This document shows, piece after piece, positions 14,736-24,412 of a stretch of 64,000 bases of DNA. How positions within the stretch are numbered: position 1 is the first letter of the stretch; each line of letters begins with the position of its first letter. The notes under the pieces were generated by a model. The model was not told the origin of the DNA. It saw only the letters and a program-made list of their open reading frames with translations, and ran no database searches. Origin of the DNA: Diplonema papillatum (Eukaryota; Euglenozoa; Diplonemea; Diplonemida; Diplonemidae); contig JAPJBO010000748.1 of the NCBI GenBank assembly GCA_030068145.1, positions 48,562 to 112,561 of the forward strand, written 5' to 3'. A program made the translations under genes and the position numbers.

Positions 14736-14775
14736 CATTCAGATGTAGATCTAAAGCCGCCCACGTCAAATTTTG
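14736..14775. repeat. 40-bp direct repeat flanking the LINE block, right-hand gene end
   Basis: The sequence beginning CATTCAGATGTAGATCTAAA is repeated at 23750-23789. The two copies bracket the full-length LINE plus truncated copy 2. It may be a target-site duplication, or a 3'-UTR extension present in only some copies. Confidence 0.6.
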
Positions 14776-14842
14776 TTAAGCATTGAGTTCTTTTAAGTAC
14801 ATGAACCACATGGATTAGCATGCACTGTGTCGCCGCTTAAGG

Positions 14843-17800
14843 TTACTTTATGACGTCGTCACCTGTCATTGCGTCGTCAAGGTCGAGTACTTGTGGCACC
14901 AGGGGCGCTGGGCTTTCTTGCGGTTCTGGAGATTGCGTGGGGGGGCACAGGTGCGGACAGGCTTGCACGTTTTTCACTCTCGAGGGCACCGGAGTGCTTG
15001 GGGACGTCGGACGTTTCTGGTAGCTGCTTGCTTTAAGGGCCTTCTTCTTTTTTCGTTGCACCCCTGACTCGGGTGTGGTCGCCTTCGCCTTCTTCCGCTT
15101 GCGGCCGGCGATCGGGCTCTCCTTCGGGGTGCCGAGCACCCTCTTCTTCAACGCTGGTCGTTCGCCGGTCCCTGGCGTTGGTGGCGGCCTCTTGGCCGCC
15201 CGTCCGGTCGTCGCCGTCTTCTGCTTCACCACGGCGGGCGGTGCCTGCGCCGCGCGCTTTCCCGCCGGTGTTTCTCGTTGTACGCCCACCTGGGTGGGTG
15301 AGAGGGGTCTCTTCTTCTTTTTGCTGTGTCCGGGGGTTGCCGGGGCGTTCGGTTCGTTGGGTTGGTGGTGGCCGCGGCGGCAGCACGCTGCCGGTCTCCT
15401 CTGCGCCAACGTAGGGAGCCCCCTGCATTCCTGGCAGGTTCCTCTGCCATGCGTGCGGCAGGCATGATGCCCGCTGCGGCAGCACGCCGCCGCCGTCTTG
15501 CACTCGCCGCATTTCGTCGTGCTGTGCTCCACGCACACCGCGATCGGCTGCCCATCGTCAGCGTGGTGATGGTGCCGACAGCACATCTCTACCGTGGGCA
15601 CGTCCCTTCGGACGAGTGCTCGACACGCCTCACACTTCCCCTTGTGGTGGGTCGCGCAGGTGACGAGCGCCTTCTCTACTCCGACACCCGGCATATGCAC
15701 GGGGTCGGGGTGCAGCTGTGGTGGGGCAGGCAGGGCCCACCTCGCCGCTCTCTCGGCCGTCCAGTCCGGGTACGTCGGGAACTGCGTCCCTACATCGCTT
15801 CCCTTCACCTGCTCTTCGAGGATCGTCCCCGTGTGTGCCTCGCGAAAGCGGGGCCTGGGCCGCACCCCCGATATCCCCGTGATGCCCATGAACGACAGCG
15901 ACGTCGTCGGGCATACTCTCTCGCCTCGCTCGCAACTCCCCAGCCCTTGCTGTGTCGCCAGCTTGTCCAACGCGCTGATCATGCAGCGCAGGACGTTTCC
16001 TCGCTCCCTCACCCCCTTCGGTGCATTCTCGTGCAGCGGTATGCTGAGGCCTGAAAAGAGTTCAAAGTCGATGGCAAGCTCTAGCATTGACGCCTGCCCG
16101 TTCTCGGTCCACTCCATGTCTGACAGCCACGCTACCAACGCATAAAACGTCGGTAGCCCCCAGGCCTTGTTCCGCTCCCACGCCCATGCCGGGGCAATCC
16201 GCGCAAAGGGGTGGTCGAGCTTCTCGGCAGGCATCGCATCCGCTCTCGACCAGGGGGTCGTGGGGTTCCTGGCTACCCAGCCTCGTGCTTCGAGCCCTGC
16301 CCGCTCCGCAAGGATTTCAGCCATCATCTCCTGGAGCCGCCTCGAGAAGTGGGCATTTTCGGGTACTACCACTCCGTGTTCCAGCGTGCATCTGGGCCAG
16401 TCGGCGCGGTTGGCCGCCATCAGCTCGGCATGTGCCTCTCGTCGCCGTATGTGCGAGTACGCTCCGCAGTCCCAGAATACGTGTTTCTCGTCCTCGGTGT
16501 CGCCGCTTCCACAGTGCTTGCAGCTGGGCGCCTGCGGCTCAGCTCCGGCCTGTCTCATCCGCGACGTGAACTCAGCCGTGTTCACTCCTCCCGCCAACGC
16601 TACACGTATAAGCCTCGCGGTGTGCGCGGGACATTCACGCATCCTCCAGAAGGAGTTCGTCCGCTCCAAGTCGGCTCTCTGTACACCCTCAAATCCCGGC
16701 CGCCTCGCTACCAGACGGGACCACGTCTTCGCCCTCAAATCCGCCCTCACTTCATGCCCCCTCTTCGAGGGTGTCGAGGCTATCGGGTCAAATATTGCAC
16801 CATTCCTCAGCGTGCGAGACAGGGGCCCTGGTCCCCATACGTGTCCACACTCCTCCATGCTCTTCATCGCCAGTCCAACTGGCCCCAGGGGTAGGTCCTC
16901 CTCGGCGTACCTTCCCCGGATGCTCTCCATCAGAGGCAGAAGTCGTGGCAACCTCTCGCACGCCGCGTAGAACGCCGTCGTCACCCTATATGCTAGGCAT
17001 GTACTGGGGTCCGTCAGGTGGCCCTTCTCCTGAAAATTTAGGACCATCTCCCTCGCGCGCTTTGGGTTGGACCCACCCCAGATCAGTCCCATCACCGACG
17101 TCGTCAGCCGTTTCATTGCCACCTTCGACACCGGCGCGAAAGAGCAGCCTGACAGCGCCGCCGGCAGCACATTCGACTGTACAATCCGGACCCGCTTCTC
17201 GTACCGGAACGGCGCATGGCGGAGGCCTTCCGCCAGGGCAGCCGCCTTCTCCACCCTCTCCGAGTCGGACCTTTCTGTCCTATTCTTCGCCGTCGAGACT
17301 AGGGCCCCCAGGCACGTGACAGATTTGCCAAACCGCAGCAGCGCATCCACGCTGCGGAGTCTGAGCGTCGACTGATGCCTACGTCTCGTCGAGAAGGCGA
17401 CCGTTTTCTGGAGGTTCAGCTCCATTCCGGTGAGCGTGCAGAACTCGTCTACCACGTCCACCCCCTTTTGCAGGGCGGCCTCCGACAGCCGCGATAGCAG
17501 CGTGGCATCGTCCGCGTACGACTTTGGGCTCACCCCCTCCGCTTCTTTCTTGACCGCCTTCATCACTACCGACAGCAGGGCATTGATGAGGATGACGGAT
17601 ACAGGGCACCCTTGAAGGATACCATTGGTCACACTAAACTCCCTGCCCACCCCTAGAGGCAGCTTGAAGCGTCTCGCGAGCAGTCTGTAGATCGCCCTCA
17701 GCGGCTTGAGAACCCGATTGTGCAACCCTAAGTCCCCGGCCAGGCGCAGCACTATCTCTCGCGGGACCATGTCGAAACATTTCCGGAAGTCCAGCGCCAC

Positions 17801-20758
17801 TCCGTAGAGCGGCTCTCCATCTAGCAAGGCGTCCTCCATCTCGAGCCCTATCTCCATCAGGACGTCCTCGATACGGTGACCCGGTCGAAAGCCCTTCTGT
17901 CCTTCTTCGATCCACTTCTCCTGCCACAGGACTATGTCCGCAAGCCTGCGGCACGCCCATAGGCGGTACACAGCGGACGTGACGGTTATTGGCCTCGTGT
18001 GCAGCGGGTCTTGGCTCTCATCCTTCGGCACCATCGACACCAGGGCAGTTGTCATGCTCGCCGGCCAAACCCCAGTCACTTCGACCAGGTTCATGACATC
18101 CGCTAGCGCATTCAGCAGGGGAAGCGGCAACTCCCGCAGTTCAGCCATGCGCCAGCCATCCACGCCTGACGCGCTTTTCTTCGGCTTCTTCCTTAGCAGA
18201 GTCCGCAGCTCCTCCCCCGTGATCGTCCCGGGTTCCATCAAGTGTGTGTCGATGTGCTCCTGGAACCGATCCCGAAACGGTCCGTACTCCGGCTCTGGCC
18301 GGTCCTTGTATTTACGCAGGATAGCGTCCCACGCAGTGTGCAACACCTCGTCCATCTCGTCCACATTTGCAGTCATCTTCGCTCCGGTGCGCAACACACC
18401 CGACGGCTCAGCGCGACCGGCGCAGACGGTCGCTAGACATCGTCTGCTCGCGTCCGCCCTCTCGTTAAGCTTGTCTCGGTACTTCGTAAACCTGGCCGCA
18501 GATCCTTCCCTTCCGAGCCTACTCGTCTCTTCCCGCAACGCTGTGAGCAGCTGCTTCGCCTTCTCATGATCCGGAAACCCCCCTGCGCCTTGGTCGCCCA
18601 CCATGCACGCTTGTGCCAGCCGCTTGCAGTTCTGCCAGCAGAGGGACACCTCATGTGGAACAGCTTCCGGCCCGCGACGTTGCGCGAGGTAGCTGCAGAT
18701 GCGTTCCATCCGGTGGATGGCCTTTCTAAGCCGTAGCTGCCTGCTGTTCGCTGCCCCCGACCCGTCGGTCGCAGTGCCCGCCGTGACACAGACCCTCCTC
18801 GGCAATGTCTTCATCCCCCGGCCGGTACCCCTTCCTCTCTCTTCCACAGGGACGGCGAATGCATCCTGCAAGTACCGCTCACTGACCCGTGACCACTCGA
18901 GCCAGGCCTCTTCCACCCGCTGCGCCGCCAATCGTTCCGCGAATTCGGAGTTGGCCAGTCTCTGTACGGCTTCCCTGTCGGCTTCTGCTTCCGAGAGGTC
19001 CCACTTGGACCCCCCCTCTGTCGGGATCTCCCGCGGCACCTTAAATCGCCACACGCTTTGGCGCAGCGCTGCAATATCCAGGGTCACTGTCACGAGCCGG
19101 TGTCCCGGTACGTTCACCGCGGTGGTGACGCATTGACGGAATGCACACGCCGCTATGCGGTTGAGGAGTATGCGGTCGATCCTCGTGCCTGACGTCCGGG
19201 CGCTGGTAAAGGTCGGTGGCGGAGGCGTGTTCCCGGTGCGCGCATGGTGCAGTTCCGCTGCGTCGGACCATCCGTTCCTAAGTGCCTTCCGCAGAACAGG
19301 GGACCGATCTTCTTCCGTGTTGAGGTCTCCCATCACCAGTATGGGGACGTCGCCGAGGCTGTCTGCCGCCGCAAAGAGGACCTTCTCCAGCATGTCCTCA
19401 CGTTCCTCGTTCTCCGCCCTCCCGTTTCCTGATGGGCAGTAGACATTGAACACGTGCACGAAGGTGCTGCCGGTCCCTGTTGCGACTACAGTATGGCTTA
19501 CCCGGTCCGGGGACCGTAACGCCACGTGCGAGAGCGCTGCCAACGTGTCGTACGCCGGTATCGGCCTCTGTACTAGAGTGCAGAGTCCCCCGTTCGCAGC
19601 GTTCGTCGTCGAGCGACTACCGGAGCTTCTACAGAGTCTCCCGGGAGGTGGCGGACCCCAGTGGCAGCACCAATTCCGTAGGTATTCCTCCGCCTGTGCC
19701 CGTTTGCATCGAAGGAGTGTGACCTCCTGGCAGCAAAGAAGGTCGGCTTCCACCGCGTTAACCGCTACTATGTACTGCAGCATGCTGGTCACGTTGAGCG
19801 TCGCGAACTTCATCTCCGTGCGGCCGGGACCAGGGTTCTGTTCGACGTCCCCAGCTGTTAACAGCCGCTCTCGTGCAGATCCTCTGACTGATTCTTCTGT
19901 TCTTTTACTGTTACATAAATGCGTAGGGTTGGACTGTTGATGGGGGGGATGGGTGAGTGACTGTGGGGGGGGTGGGGGGGGCATTGTGGGTGGATCCAGC
20001 GTACCTTGTTCTCCTCTGGTGGGGGAGGAGCAGCGGGCCCTTCCCTCGTGCACAGCTCTGTAGGTGAGCGAGACCCTGTCGTGTGTGACATCACCGGGAC
20101 GGATCCCGTGTGTCCACAGGTTCCTGGCCTCGCCCTCCATGTGGCACAGAGTGCCGGCTGGCAGCGGGGTTCTCACTCTTTGGGTCCCCCTCTCCCACTC
20201 CATGACCGTGTCACTCAGTAGCGAAACAGTCGCAACCCTCGGTCCAAGTTCTTGCTGGTCTTTATGGGGGTTTATCCCCACTCCCTTCCGGTACCAGTTG
20301 GCCAGCAACTGGTCCGGTTCCCACCCCAGACGGTCACGTATGACATCCGCAGCTTCTCTCAGGGGCCCCTCGGGGATCCCCCGCTCCAGTTTGACCGGGG
20401 GTCCGCCCTGTCGATAGGCGTGCCCCCACTGCTGGGTTTCCCTGCCATGCCCTCCCCCCAGCCTTCCCCAGGGGGCTTCCGGTCTGAGCTCGGGGACCCG
20501 GCTCAGCCTCTCCAGGAGGTCCCGAGGGATCGTCTGGAAGCTGAGCCCGGGAATGGGTCCATCCTCCCTGCTTCGGGGGGGCTTGCTCCCGGGTCTTTGC
20601 CCCTCGCCGTAAGTCGGCCGCGGATGTTGGTCATTGTGGGGGGTTTGTTTGTGCGCAATGTCGGGCCCTCGGGGTAAAACTCCCGGACGACTGAGGCCTG
20701 GCGCGTCGAGAGAGGGGGAGAAAGAAGAAGAAGAGGGTCTGCCGCCCCCTTCGCGCAT
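14843..20758 (-). CDS. LINE ORF2: AlkB-2A-endonuclease-reverse transcriptase
   Basis: An uninterrupted 1,971-residue polyprotein of a non-LTR retrotransposon starting at ATG 20758. Order: (1) about residues 66-240, an AlkB-like 2-oxoglutarate/Fe(II) dioxygenase, with HKD as the HxD iron pair near 164, a later WTHGI histidine near 215, and RVSLTYR, the family's RxxxxxR signature; (2) a Pro-rich linker; (3) near 300-310, LLTAGDVEQNPGP, a full 2A ribosome-skipping motif; (4) an APE-type endonuclease (CQEV, GDLN, RIDRIL, GHRLV); (5) a reverse transcriptase with LDFRKCFD, NGILQGCP and catalytic YADD; (6) a C-x2-C-x8-H-x4-C knuckle; (7) repeated Cys/His motifs (CATHHKGKCEAC, CCRHHHHADD) and a Lys-rich tail. 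Skipping at NPGP would free the AlkB domain. It appears intact and lies inside an intron of the IP3-receptor gene, same strand. Confidence 0.9.
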   Translation of the reverse strand: MREGGGRPSSSSFSPSLDAPGLSRPGVLPRGPDIAHKQTPHNDQHPRPTYGEGQRPGSKPPRSREDGPIPGLSFQTIPRDLLERLSRVPELRPEAPWGRLGGGHGRETQQWGHAYRQGGPPVKLERGIPEGPLREAADVIRDRLGWEPDQLLANWYRKGVGINPHKDQQELGPRVATVSLLSDTVMEWERGTQRVRTPLPAGTLCHMEGEARNLWTHGIRPGDVTHDRVSLTYRAVHEGRARCSSPTRGEQGTLDPPTMPPPPPPQSLTHPPHQQSNPTHLCNSKRTEESVRGSARERLLTAGDVEQNPGPGRTEMKFATLNVTSMLQYIVAVNAVEADLLCCQEVTLLRCKRAQAEEYLRNWCCHWGPPPPGRLCRSSGSRSTTNAANGGLCTLVQRPIPAYDTLAALSHVALRSPDRVSHTVVATGTGSTFVHVFNVYCPSGNGRAENEEREDMLEKVLFAAADSLGDVPILVMGDLNTEEDRSPVLRKALRNGWSDAAELHHARTGNTPPPPTFTSARTSGTRIDRILLNRIAACAFRQCVTTAVNVPGHRLVTVTLDIAALRQSVWRFKVPREIPTEGGSKWDLSEAEADREAVQRLANSEFAERLAAQRVEEAWLEWSRVSERYLQDAFAVPVEERGRGTGRGMKTLPRRVCVTAGTATDGSGAANSRQLRLRKAIHRMERICSYLAQRRGPEAVPHEVSLCWQNCKRLAQACMVGDQGAGGFPDHEKAKQLLTALREETSRLGREGSAARFTKYRDKLNERADASRRCLATVCAGRAEPSGVLRTGAKMTANVDEMDEVLHTAWDAILRKYKDRPEPEYGPFRDRFQEHIDTHLMEPGTITGEELRTLLRKKPKKSASGVDGWRMAELRELPLPLLNALADVMNLVEVTGVWPASMTTALVSMVPKDESQDPLHTRPITVTSAVYRLWACRRLADIVLWQEKWIEEGQKGFRPGHRIEDVLMEIGLEMEDALLDGEPLYGVALDFRKCFDMVPREIVLRLAGDLGLHNRVLKPLRAIYRLLARRFKLPLGVGREFSVTNGILQGCPVSVILINALLSVVMKAVKKEAEGVSPKSYADDATLLSRLSEAALQKGVDVVDEFCTLTGMELNLQKTVAFSTRRRHQSTLRLRSVDALLRFGKSVTCLGALVSTAKNRTERSDSERVEKAAALAEGLRHAPFRYEKRVRIVQSNVLPAALSGCSFAPVSKVAMKRLTTSVMGLIWGGSNPKRAREMVLNFQEKGHLTDPSTCLAYRVTTAFYAACERLPRLLPLMESIRGRYAEEDLPLGPVGLAMKSMEECGHVWGPGPLSRTLRNGAIFDPIASTPSKRGHEVRADLRAKTWSRLVARRPGFEGVQRADLERTNSFWRMRECPAHTARLIRVALAGGVNTAEFTSRMRQAGAEPQAPSCKHCGSGDTEDEKHVFWDCGAYSHIRRREAHAELMAANRADWPRCTLEHGVVVPENAHFSRRLQEMMAEILAERAGLEARGWVARNPTTPWSRADAMPAEKLDHPFARIAPAWAWERNKAWGLPTFYALVAWLSDMEWTENGQASMLELAIDFELFSGLSIPLHENAPKGVRERGNVLRCMISALDKLATQQGLGSCERGERVCPTTSLSFMGITGISGVRPRPRFREAHTGTILEEQVKGSDVGTQFPTYPDWTAERAARWALPAPPQLHPDPVHMPGVGVEKALVTCATHHKGKCEACRALVRRDVPTVEMCCRHHHHADDGQPIAVCVEHSTTKCGECKTAAACCRSGHHACRTHGRGTCQECRGLPTLAQRRPAACCRRGHHQPNEPNAPATPGHSKKKKRPLSPTQVGVQRETPAGKRAAQAPPAVVKQKTATTGRAAKRPPPTPGTGERPALKKRVLGTPKESPIAGRKRKKAKATTPESGVQRKKKKALKASSYQKRPTSPSTPVPSRVKNVQACPHLCPPTQSPEPQESPAPLVPQVLDLDDAMTGDDVIK
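19825..19866 (-). other. 2A ribosome-skipping motif within LINE ORF2
   Basis: Encodes LLTAGDVEQNPGP, matching the D(V/I)ExNPGP consensus of 2A peptides, with the upstream leucines also present. It sits between the dioxygenase-like domain and the start of the endonuclease (a Met follows five residues later). 2A sequences are known in some trypanosome and animal non-LTR elements. Confidence 0.88.
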
Positions 20759-20851
20759 TGCTGCGTGATCGAACTGCCTAGTAGCGTTGCTAGGACTCGG
20801 CAGCCCGAACGAGGGCCTCGGTCCTCCGGTGGCCCGGGGATCCTGATGCAG

Positions 20852-22573
20852 TCAGCCACTGCCAGCCTTCTCCCTGGTGCGGTAGCATTCGTGGCACACT
20901 CTGGCACCACACGCGCACTTCCTCTGCAGCGTGTTCTTCCCCTTCCCTCCGTTGCAGCGGCTGCACTTCCAGGCCACCTTCGTCTTCTCCACGTCATCGC
21001 CCCAGTTGTGGACGTGCGCATCGACCTGCATCTCGCCTTCCGCACTTCCCGCGGCTTCGCCTTCCATCTCGCCCGCCTTCCGCTTCGCGCTCGGCGCCAC
21101 GTCCTCCTGCCGAGCCGCCGGTGGGGCATCCTGTTCCCCCTGGGGTAGCCGCGCGTTGGGGATGCGGCCCTTCCAATGCTTCGTACCGCTAGGTACGTCG
21201 CCGACCCTCACCCTCCGGATGTAGAGCGGCGTCCTGTTCGCCCTCTTCACCACCTCGGCTGGCGGGTCCGTGCTGGCGTTGACCACCAGGTTGGTGCGCC
21301 TGCCTGTCACGAAGCACTTCGTGACCCGGCAGTCCCACTGCACCGCACGCAGTGCGGCGAGCATCTCCTCCTGATGCTCACCGACCTCGCTCTCCACCAG
21401 GAACCTCGCCTCGGGGGGGCCCTGGCGCTCCGGCGCTGCCAAGGAGCCGGCCCTGTCGATGAGCGTCCTGCGGGCCGCCGGGTTGCTGGCGGAGTAGCGC
21501 ACCCCGTACCGCGTCCTCGCCGCTGCCACCCCGAGCGCGTCGGCGTGTCCGGCGATCTCCATCGCCTGCTCCAGCTTGGCATCCTCCGCCAGCCACACGA
21601 CGGGGTGCAACTCGTTGCCATTGACGAAGGATGGCGCGGCCCAGTACACGCCCCCCTTGCCGCTGGAGCGCAGTAGAGTCGGCGCCTCGCGCGTCGTGAC
21701 CCGCACTGACACCGTGTGCCGCGTCGACGTGCAACGGTGGTTAAACCGATGCCTCCTCTCGATGGTGACCCCCGCGGCCGCCGCTGCTCTTCGACACAGC
21801 ACGTCTGCTGCTCCTGCTCCCGTCGCGGCACTCTTCAGCGAGGTGCGTGTCTTCTCGTCGACGTCCTTGTACATTACTGTACACCACATGACCGTGGTCG
21901 CATCTCCCACCTCGACCTCCTTCGCGATCGGTACACGCCCGACGTCGGCTCCACCCCACTGCGTCACGTAACACGACGCCTCCGTGCCGTTGTCGAATCT
22001 GACGATCCGCTCCCGACTCTCGTCCGTCAGCCTGCCCGGCGTCACCAGCGCGACCCTAAGGTCCTTCGCCTCCATCTCCAACAGCTCTCGGTACCCCGCA
22101 CCAAGCTGCTCCCCCGTTTCCTTTCTTCCGGCGTAGACCACCCCCTGCCGGATGTCTTCCGCCTTCTCCGCCTCGACCACCTCGACATGCCAGTCGCATG
22201 GCCTCAGCCTCTTTCCGCGGCTGACTCCCGGCGCTTTCACGTATCCGCCCCTCGCCTGCGGACTTCTCGTCACCACGTTCGCCCATGTCACGCCCGGCCG
22301 CTGCGTTGCGTCCTCCCGGTCAGTCTGCACGTCGCGGGCGTCGTCGGCCCTCGTCTCCTTCGCCGCCGGTGTCGCCGCCGTCTGCTTCGCAGCCTGCTTC
22401 CGCCCTGCCTTCGCAGGCTGCGTCTGCTCTGCCTTCACGGGCTGCCCCGCCGCCTTCTCCGCAAGAACGAGCAGGATCTTGACGATCCCGTACGCGGCGC
22501 TGATGTCCGCCTCGCTCACCGCCTTCTCCGCAAGGTGCTGCGCCCTCGCGATGAAGCGTTGGAGCTCCTCCAT
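20852..22573 (-). CDS. LINE ORF1 protein (nucleic-acid-binding)
   Basis: A 573-residue ORF starting at ATG 22573 and ending 93 nt before ORF2. An N-terminal helical segment (FIARAQHLAEKAVSEADISA) is followed by a Lys/Ala-rich linker, a central part without recognised motifs, and a C-terminal Cys-rich domain (CSRCNGGKGKNTLQRKCACG then CHECY), resembling a zinc ribbon. By position it is the ORF1 protein that would bind LINE RNA; the sequence alone does not place it in a family. ORF2 is in a different frame, so its translation needs reinitiation or a separate start. Confidence 0.72.
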   Translation of the reverse strand: MEELQRFIARAQHLAEKAVSEADISAAYGIVKILLVLAEKAAGQPVKAEQTQPAKAGRKQAAKQTAATPAAKETRADDARDVQTDREDATQRPGVTWANVVTRSPQARGGYVKAPGVSRGKRLRPCDWHVEVVEAEKAEDIRQGVVYAGRKETGEQLGAGYRELLEMEAKDLRVALVTPGRLTDESRERIVRFDNGTEASCYVTQWGGADVGRVPIAKEVEVGDATTVMWCTVMYKDVDEKTRTSLKSAATGAGAADVLCRRAAAAAGVTIERRHRFNHRCTSTRHTVSVRVTTREAPTLLRSSGKGGVYWAAPSFVNGNELHPVVWLAEDAKLEQAMEIAGHADALGVAAARTRYGVRYSASNPAARRTLIDRAGSLAAPERQGPPEARFLVESEVGEHQEEMLAALRAVQWDCRVTKCFVTGRRTNLVVNASTDPPAEVVKRANRTPLYIRRVRVGDVPSGTKHWKGRIPNARLPQGEQDAPPAARQEDVAPSAKRKAGEMEGEAAGSAEGEMQVDAHVHNWGDDVEKTKVAWKCSRCNGGKGKNTLQRKCACGARVCHECYRTREKAGSG

Positions 22574-22796
22574 CCCGTGGGGAGGCTGGCCTTCTGTCTT
22601 CTCTGATTCTCTCTGTTCTCTCTCTTTTTTTTTTTTTTTTTTTTTCTTTTTACGTATCTTTCCGCGCTTTCTTGGTGTGTTGCTTTCACCGGAGGGGTCC
22701 GGTACCGTATGTTTCCTAACAAGCCCGAGGGAGCTTGCCGGCGACCACGGTAAGCCACCAATAAAGTACAGAAACTGTAGCTTTTAAATCGTTGGT
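22574..22796 (-). promoter_or_regulatory. LINE 5' UTR
   Basis: Between the tail of truncated copy 2 (22797 onward) and the ORF1 ATG. It contains a run of about 23 T on the plus strand (22626-22648), which is an A-run in the LINE sense. Internal promoter activity would be expected for a LINE 5' UTR, but no defined motif was recognised. Confidence 0.5.
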
Positions 22797-23749
22797 AAAT
22801 TTTGTTAAGCATTGAGTTCTTTTAAGTACATGAACCACATGGATTAGCATGCACTGCCTTGAAAGTCAGGTTATCGGATGACGTCGTCACCTGCCATTGC
22901 GTCGTCAAGGTCGAGCATTTGTGGAGCTAGCGGGGTTTGGCTTTCTTGCGATTCCAAAGACTGAGTCGGCGAGTACGAGGGCGGGCACGTGTGTCCGTTT
23001 TTCACTTTCGAGGGCATTGGTGTGCCCGTGGTCCCCGGTCGTTTCTGAGAGCTGCTTGCCCTCGGTACCTTCTTCTTCTTTCGTTGCACCCCTGAGTCGG
23101 GGGTGGTCGCCTTCGTCTTCTTCCGCTTGCGGCCGGCGATCAGGCCTTCCTTCGGGGTGCCGAGCACCCTCTTCTTCAGCGCTGGTCGTTCGCTGGTTCC
23201 TGGCGTTGGTGGCGGCCTCTTGGTCGCCCGTCCGGTCGTCGCCGTCTCCTTTTTAGTTGCCGCGAGCGGCGCTCGCGCCGCTCGCGCCGCTCGCGCCGCT
23301 CGCTTTCCTACTGGCGTTTCCCGCTGTACACCCACCTGGGTGGGTGAGGAGGGCCTCTTCTTCTTGTTGCGTCCGGGGGTTGACTCGACGTTCGGCTTGT
23401 TGGACTGGTGGTGGCCGCGGCTGCAACATGCCGCCGGTCGCCTCTGCGTCAGCGTAGGGAGCCTTTTGCACTCTTGGCAGGAGCCATGCGTGCGGCAGGC
23501 ATGATGCCCGCTGCGGCAACACGCCGCCGCCGTCTTGCACTCGCCGCACTTCGTCGTGCTGTGCTCTGTGCACACCGCGATCGGCTGCCCATCGTTCGCG
23601 TGGTGATGGTGCCGGCAGCACATCTCTACCGTGGGAACGTCCCTTCGGACGAGTGCTCTGCACGCCTCACACTTCCCTTTGTGATGGGTCGCGCACGTGA
23701 CGAGTGCCTTCTCTATACCGACACCCGGCATATGCACGGGGTCTGAGTG
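22797..23749 (-). mobile_element. 5'-truncated LINE copy 2
   Basis: Contains only the last ~290 codons of a LINE ORF2 plus its 3' tail. The frame stays open from 23752 to 22871 and matches the C-terminal Cys/His repeats and Lys-rich tail of the full copy, with small differences (an expanded Arg-Ala run near 23260-23300, missing residues in the RTHG segment). The tail GTACTTAAAAGAACTCAATG then CTTAACAAA joins directly to the 5' end of the full copy. The 5' truncation is typical of target-primed reverse transcription. Confidence 0.85.
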
Positions 23750-23789
23750 CATTCAGATGTAGATCTAAAGCCGCCCACGTCAAATTTTG
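23750..23789. repeat. 40-bp direct repeat flanking the LINE block, left copy in LINE sense
   Basis: Same sequence as 14736-14775. It lies between truncated copies 3 and 2. Confidence 0.6.
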
Positions 23790-24057
23790 TTAAGCATTGA
23801 GTTCTTTTAAGTACATGAACCACATGGATTAGCATGCACTGCCTTGAAAGTCAGGTTATCGGATGACGTCGTCACCTGCCATTGCGTCGTCAAGGTCGAG
23901 CATTTGTGGAGCTAGCGGGGTTTGGCTTTCTTGCGATTCCAGAGACTGAGTCGGCGAGTACGAGGGCGGGCACGTGTGTCCGTTTTTCACTTTCGAGGGC
24001 GTTGGTGTGCCCGTGGTCCCCGGTCGTTTCTGAGAGCTGCTTGCCCTCGGTACCTTC
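23790..24057 (-). mobile_element. 5'-truncated LINE copy 3
   Basis: About 270 bp: the last ~65 codons of ORF2 (ending MLDLDDAMAGDDVIR, identical in copy 2) plus the 3' tail. It is nearly identical to the matching part of copy 2, so the two probably derive from the same subfamily, distinct from the full copy (TGDDVIK). Confidence 0.8.
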
Positions 24058-24115
24058 TTTGTTAAGCATTGAGTTCTTTTAAGTACATGAACCACACGGA
24101 TTAACATGCATTGTT
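24058..24115 (-). mobile_element. LINE tail fragment, copy 4
   Basis: Only the terminal ~58 bp of the LINE 3' tail, with substitutions (ACACGG, TTAACATG). It abuts the start of truncated copy 3, giving a tail-to-body chain of four LINE ends. Confidence 0.7.
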
Positions 24116-24412
24116 AAGCAGCGGCTCCCAAAACTTGCCGTGACACCTATTTGATGCACTGTAAAGGAGAAAGTTGGAAGTAATTGGGAACTTGATATTT
24201 TGTTGAGACCCTCGTAGCTCGCTGGGTCAGGCGCGCCAGGTACGTGCTGGGCTGAAGAACACAACCACACTATGCCAAAGGGCGGGCTGGGAAACGCCTG
24301 CGCCGAGATGTACCTTGCAGCACATTTCCTTCTCCTGTCTGGTTTTGCAACGAGCGGCCTCCTCGGGTATTTGCTGCAAAGCAGGTGTTCAATTAAAAAC
24401 AACAGGGCACAC

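Follow-up and report, generated by a model that had tools for sequence, protein, structure and literature searches.

An APE-type LINE that carries an AlkB-like dioxygenase domain upstream of a 2A motif was found in many copies in the genome of the marine flagellate Diplonema papillatum. We assign a probability of roughly 0.6 to the reading that this element has the plan ORF1 - leaky UGA - AlkB - 2A - endonuclease/reverse transcriptase (RT), and that an AlkB tethered to the ORF1 protein (ORF1p) demethylates the nucleic acid of the element. The window analyzed, a stretch of 64,000 nucleotides containing a complete copy, is part of the 271-Mb D. papillatum assembly (2910 contigs).

Organization and insertion of the complete copy

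The complete copy of approximately 8.0 kb is located on the minus strand from position 22796 to 14775, and its coding order on that strand is ORF1, TGA, and then AlkB, 2A, AP endonuclease, and RT in the single frame of ORF2. ORF1 (20852..22573; 573 amino acids plus TGA) has a Cys-rich C-terminus and gave no match in a Pfam search. It lies directly upstream of ORF2 in the same frame with a single TGA between them, an arrangement that had gone unnoticed in a preliminary description of this DNA. That description had reported an open frame from 20758 to 14843 encoding the four domains in this order. The frame is indeed open and, from stop to stop, is longer (14843..20851 including the stop codon; 2002 amino acids), with the Met at 20758 as residue 32; the domain order was borne out by the matches to PF13532, PF03372, and PF00078 and by the positions of the motifs.

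Within ORF2, linker 1 (20564..20851), which is weakly constrained (dN/dS 0.62-0.81) and contains the Met at 20758, is followed by the AlkB domain (20048..20563; residues 97-268) and the 2A motif GDVEQNPGP (19826..19852; residues 334-342), all on the minus strand. The motif conforms to D(V/I)ExNPGP as defined in PMC4981915, and skipping is predicted between the codon ending at 19829 and the codon starting at 19828. Downstream on the same strand are the Pfam stretches of the AP endonuclease (PF03372; 19148..19783; residues 357-568; E 1.3e-10) and of the RT (PF00078; 17390..18004; residues 950-1154; E 2.1e-19), the latter with YADD at residue 1112 (position 17518). A Cys/His-rich repeat (CATHHKGKCEACR, CVEHSTTKCGECK, CRTHGRGTCQECR) was seen after the RT part, in the C-terminus of ORF2 (window ~15650-15400). 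The 3' untranslated end (14775..14842, minus strand) terminates in GCTTAAC and has no poly(A). The element has the features of an APE-type LINE, namely an AP endonuclease and an RT in one ORF, two ORFs, and no LTRs (self-comparison of the window revealed no LTR pair around it), and the TPRT marks of such a LINE, 5'-truncated copies and a 39-nt direct repeat, are also present.

Row 'Euglenozoa 14' of a printed table is presumably the Diplonema spliced leader. The 5' end of the element (22759..22796, minus strand) consists of a spliced-leader exon lacking its first base (38 of 39 nt, exact match; 0 in 100 shuffles), which the preliminary description had also overlooked, and the leader letters are identical to that row (PMC3795323). 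Ten other 5' ends were obtained from the best 40 of 737 candidates with a query containing the leader, a sample that gives no genome-wide rate; eight retained the final 12-14 nt of the leader, a ninth had a leader that was internally deleted, and in the tenth approximately 35 nt were joined at a point 11 nt further inward. The simplest reading of these sequences is that a trans-spliced mRNA served as a LINE template. In the same non-random sample, the 5' ends of L036, L038, L040, L042, L044, L048, L049, and L051 stop at leader nt 26-28, inside the perfect hairpin TACAG-TTT-CTGTA; structure or a modified base in this hairpin may stop the reverse transcriptase.

The spliced leader of the complete copy is fused directly to copy B (22797..23749, minus strand), a 5'-truncated relative of approximately 84% identity. 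Both lie within one 39-nt direct repeat (right copy, 14736..14774; left copy, 23750..23788; exact edge of the right copy ambiguous), as template jumping would give. Copy C (23789..24059, minus strand) is a further 3' end that is approximately 99% identical to the end of copy B. Upstream of the complete copy, the same LINE has three additional 3' ends arranged head to tail (window 22797-24112); no target sequence intervenes between two of these, which points to repeated template jumping. The flanks of the copies (L036-L054, L086-L088; window 14736-14774 and 24060-24180) end in GCTGCTTAAC or a similar sequence and resume near [AC]CGTGGGCGG or a variant, and the LINE looks site-specific in its insertion. 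The joined flanks of the copy on contig C742 matched with 100% identity over 116 nt at 19 of 40 scored places (1690 candidates), and these matches sit inside a repeat of approximately 200 bp. Judged by eye, the insertion site appears to form a fold whose stems covary; a search of it gave no tRNA or Rfam family match, its one miRNA hit scoring far under the cut-off.

Conservation and copy number of the AlkB domain

In the AlkB family, HxD...H are the iron ligands and R-x-S/N-x-T-x-R binds 2OG. The assignment of the domain to this family, which the preliminary description had made from such motifs, was upheld by a PF13532 match on ORF2 residues 165-265 (E 5.9e-13; 49.9 bits; curated cut-off 31.2). 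The active-site residues N-x-Y, H-x-D, H, and R-x-S-x-T-x-R were invariant across a 13-row alignment, and the AF2 model of the domain, built with 13 of 24 AlkB rows, has a predicted AlkB fold with a pLDDT of 93.1; an earlier model (310 amino acids, 4 rows; pLDDT 41.5) was not used for the fold search. The closest database proteins were 99-100% identical and named Diplonema papillatum. Relatives outside Diplonema were not seen among 12 proteins (7984 candidates scored) and three from a second search, all of Diplonema, and no relative of about 170-540 amino acids was found at E<=1e-3 among 695 candidates.

When the AlkB segment was used as a genome query, all 150 scored matches (322 candidates) had 85-100% identity and contained no internal stop, and 86 of them lay within frames of 1980-2046 amino acids. 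A PF13532 search of the genome gave at least 150 matches (150 of 250 candidates scored), all above the cut-off, a set that includes host genes and other elements besides LINEs. On contigs C1-C261, a 2A motif was located 202-230 nt downstream of 48 of the 58 PF13532 hits, that is, of every LINE-type hit (48/48); the remaining ten were six host-like, three Helitron-type (one shown as a Helitron, two assigned by a near-identical AlkB), and one L015-type AlkB. The 2A DNA pattern occurs 360 times in the genome, and never when read backward. Because of this difference and the stop-free AlkB frames, the AlkB-2A frame is more than chance. Among 100 listed 2A sites (360 in all), 48 have a partner among the listed PF13532 hits. 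Twelve of the other 52 were inspected: six have AlkB in frame, one is of an AlkB-less GDVETN type, and five, with only 33-148 open codons before 2A and no full AlkB motif, look as 5'-truncated copies would. Some near-identical copies may be assembly duplicates, of which the D. papillatum genome paper warns.

The search for other elements with the same order thus yielded a multicopy family. The preliminary description had named, as an outcome that would speak against it, that relatives lack the domain and this copy alone has it through a chance fusion. Relatives without AlkB do exist (see below), but the copy is far from alone, and a chance fusion in one copy was rejected on the 48 LINE-type hits with 2A and the 150 intact AlkB copies.

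The dN/dS of AlkB against three subfamilies was 0.16-0.19 (bootstrap limits 0.09-0.32), similar to that of the endonuclease (0.15-0.17), with a dS of approximately 0.4 between the AlkB subfamilies. These values indicate purifying selection on AlkB, a test that the preliminary description had proposed, and were obtained from single copies of related subfamilies, which exchange parts. The linkers flanking AlkB had ratios of 0.38-0.81, the interval of linker 2 overlapping that of AlkB. Within L031-L033, the AlkB ratios were 0.27-0.32, or 2.03 resting on one synonymous change. We regard it as highly improbable that AlkB is a passenger, captured once, spread by copying, and functionless for the element. 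Copies within a subfamily are near-identical, and hence most are uninformative on selection, and two sister families manage without AlkB; against this stand the low ratios between subfamilies, the invariance of all expected catalytic residues, and related AlkBs on three or more types of element. A passenger is disfavored for the period after the subfamilies diverged.

The ORF1-ORF2 junction and the production of AlkB

The ORF1-ORF2 junctions of 30 loci were surveyed. Nine were left out as truncated, fused, broken, at a contig end, or of another family (L024, L026, L055, L066, and L070-L074), 21 had an intact junction, and four TGA-CTG junctions were added separately. An in-frame TGA-CTN was present at all 25 intact junctions; in the complete copy it is TGA-CTG (20849..20854, minus strand), a putative leaky stop. 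ORF2 has its first Met downstream of the AlkB HxD motif in 19 of the 21 copies checked; the exceptions are this copy (Met 32) and L033 (Met 17). AlkB therefore probably has no start codon of its own, as judged from these sequences.

The preliminary description had AlkB made as a free protein from the Met at 20758, a claim that was not supported: besides the 19 copies without a Met before HxD, L027-L030 have Thr-Ser at the position of the Met-Arg of this copy, and the Met in linker 1 is a chance Met. A model near to it, in which free AlkB starts at that Met or a non-AUG codon, or is translated from another trans-spliced mRNA beginning between ORF1 and AlkB, and in which 2A frees the replicase, appears unlikely. 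It can draw on Met 32 and Met 17 in the two exceptional copies and on the trans-splicing of messages reported in the D. papillatum genome paper, which makes a second leader-addition site conceivable. However, the frame is open all the way from the ORF1 stop, TGA-CTN is retained even in sister families that lack AlkB, and the leader was found upstream of ORF1 only, at the 5' ends inspected, which were chosen by a query holding that end.

Two such sister families were found. The P0006-type elements (L076-L078, 3/3 with a junction; L075 is truncated) and L079/L082 (2/2) consist of ORF1, an in-frame TGA, 2A, and endonuclease with no AlkB, and their junctions are TGA-CTA or TGA-CTC. Since these families share TGA-CTN and 2A, the readthrough-2A plan extends beyond the AlkB lineage; AlkB may have been gained in that lineage or lost in the sister families. 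By eye, L079 and the AlkB subfamily L031/L057 share the end of ORF1 and approximately 60 linker residues and then diverge, which suggests an exchange of 5' parts. L080 and L081 have 2A-like motifs in different settings: downstream of a repeated CVDG stretch lie GDIEPNPGP and, in succession, GDVERNPGP and GDIHPNPGP.

Most of the junctions have CTG or CTC, contexts less widely known for readthrough than CUA, the best-known one. RNA structure after the UGA showed no consistent pattern, with z scores of -1.9, -1.8, -1.3, and +0.6 in four AlkB subfamilies and -4.0 in the sister element L079; an entry for L076 was of the opposite strand. Other sequence features of UGA readthrough were found, namely UGA-CUN at every intact junction, a general lack of upstream Met, and an in-frame extension under selection. 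UGA CUA is a known weak stop with readthrough (PMC4207609, PMC11166343), and in ilarviruses a UGA C context without a conserved AUG has been used as an argument for readthrough (PMC11166343). The ilarvirus CP-RT resembles the LINE in its UGA C context, in-frame extension, and lack of a conserved AUG, and differs in that it concerns a virus coat protein and involves neither AlkB nor 2A (PMC11166343).

Because ORF1 ends with TGA-CTN in the frame of AlkB, an ORF1p-AlkB fusion is the likelier upstream product, and AlkB is most likely a readthrough tail of ORF1p that is split from the replicase by 2A. The separation of AlkB from the endonuclease-RT by a 2A motif in a LINE, as the preliminary description proposed, is supported by the Pfam order and the motif. 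Its expectation of equal amounts could fit the predicted ORF1p-AlkB fusion and the replicase, with plain ORF1p then in excess.

We infer readthrough, 2A activity, the place of the fusion, its substrate, and its benefit as follows. Most ribosomes would stop at the UGA and give ORF1p, and a minority would pass UGA-CUN and append AlkB to it. At NPG/P, 2A would end the ORF1p-AlkB chain (915 amino acids in this copy), after which a separate endonuclease-RT (1661 amino acids) would begin. ORF1p would bring AlkB into the element ribonucleoprotein, where AlkB would oxidatively strip methyl groups, most likely off the element's own RNA and possibly off single-stranded DNA or cDNA, and thereby spare the element a host methyl mark or blocked copying. 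In favor of this explanation are the active-site residues, the fold, the selection, the copy number, TGA-CTN, the plan of the sister families, and the readthrough and orchid AlkB precedents. Counted against it are the mostly CTG/CTC contexts, the upstream Met in this copy and L033, L028 (one of the 21 loci with an intact junction, in which AlkB is intact and the 2A motif is out of frame), the lack of a consistent RNA structure after the stop, fold matches that are not substrate-specific, and the limits of the selection tests.

Related AlkB domains and known systems

AlkB was also found in the N-terminal part of Helitron Rep-helicase proteins, L034 (2537-8401) and L035 (7497-1), with matches to Helitron_like_N in both (5e-38) and to PIF1 in L035 (5.7e-42); no 2A motif was found in this Helitron stretch. 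A frame of 2322 amino acids, L073/L084 on contig C641, encodes AlkB, hydrophobic repeats, a weak OTU match (0.00052, below its cut-off), and an RT (1.6e-21), and P0011 and P0013 belong to this OTU-RT element type. L015-L017 carry AlkB in a further context. In a tree from which rows L007, L022, and L024 were dropped and in which L012 is a partial exon and the host branches are long, the LINE, Helitron, and OTU-RT AlkBs formed one group apart from the host-like AlkBs (support 90/90; the tree's mark is 95). The same dioxygenase clade is thus present on several unrelated element types, as in transposon-borne silencing antagonists. In the membrane-protein gene model P0012 (DIPPA_14024), the terminal part is an AlkB segment that falls within the LINE AlkBs in the tree; this end is either an exonized LINE piece or an annotation artefact. 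The D. papillatum genome paper reports a dozen AlkB homologues and approximately 2500 retroelement gene models, and no link between them is drawn in the parts of that paper considered here.

A service of AlkB to the host, or general repair of alkylation (e.g. of tRNA or DNA) in place of countering a methyl mark on the element, appears distinctly unlikely. The nearest solved relatives of the element AlkB include ALKBH8 (tRNA) by sequence and ALKBH2, ALKBH3, and AlkB (repair) by fold, and host-like AlkB genes also exist in the genome (by visual inspection, 13 among the first 30 loci). The fold matches, which include virus polyproteins in BFVD, point to no single substrate. On the other hand, the placement of AlkB, in frame with and between the ORF1 and replicase of an element present in many copies, together with the occurrence of related domains on other element types, points to a benefit for the element. 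More tentatively, and at slightly less than even odds in our judgment, one AlkB module circulates among the LINE, Helitrons, and the OTU-RT element as a counter to host methylation, delivered in the LINE by UGA readthrough and 2A skipping.

We know of no LINE with AlkB before a 2A motif. AlkB in Ty3/gypsy elements (PMC9289625), TET/JBP in fungal DNA transposons (PMC12730594), and 2A in LINEs (PMC4981915) are already in print, and the titles and abstract beginnings of open-licence literature revealed no AlkB-bearing LINE or Helitron. 2A motifs occur in APE-type LINEs such as L1Tc of Trypanosoma cruzi and others (PMC4981915); these likewise have an AP endonuclease and an RT in one frame with 2A just before the endonuclease, whereas the Diplonema LINE has AlkB before 2A, and its 2A follows a TGA-CTN junction with ORF1. 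In Phalaenopsis, a retrotransposon AlkB-family dioxygenase is similarly kept in several Ty3/gypsy subfamilies and demethylates m6A RNA in vitro (PMC9289625). That domain is ALKBH5-like and encoded by a separate ORF of an LTR element in one host genus, in contrast to the in-frame domain between ORF1 and 2A of a protist LINE. Plant RNA virus replicases also contain AlkB domains (as stated in PMC9289625), on a polyprotein of a replicating RNA but without reverse transcription. Fungal DNA transposons, Helitrons included, resemble the Diplonema elements in that a 2OG-Fe(II) dioxygenase is present on several unrelated lineages of one genome, and it has been proposed that these enzymes counter silencing (PMC12730594). 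The fungal dioxygenases are TET/JBP and those of Diplonema AlkB, and the TET/JBP survey states that no retrotransposon of such a kind was found (PMC12730594).

If the proposed plan is correct, this would be the first LINE known to us that carries its own nucleic-acid demethylase, and among retrotransposons it would parallel the TET/JBP transposons of fungi. Its message would then undergo two recoding events, UGA readthrough and afterwards 2A. Gene replacement by transformation has been achieved in D. papillatum, according to its genome paper, so whether RNA or DNA methylation helps control LINEs would be testable in a protist.
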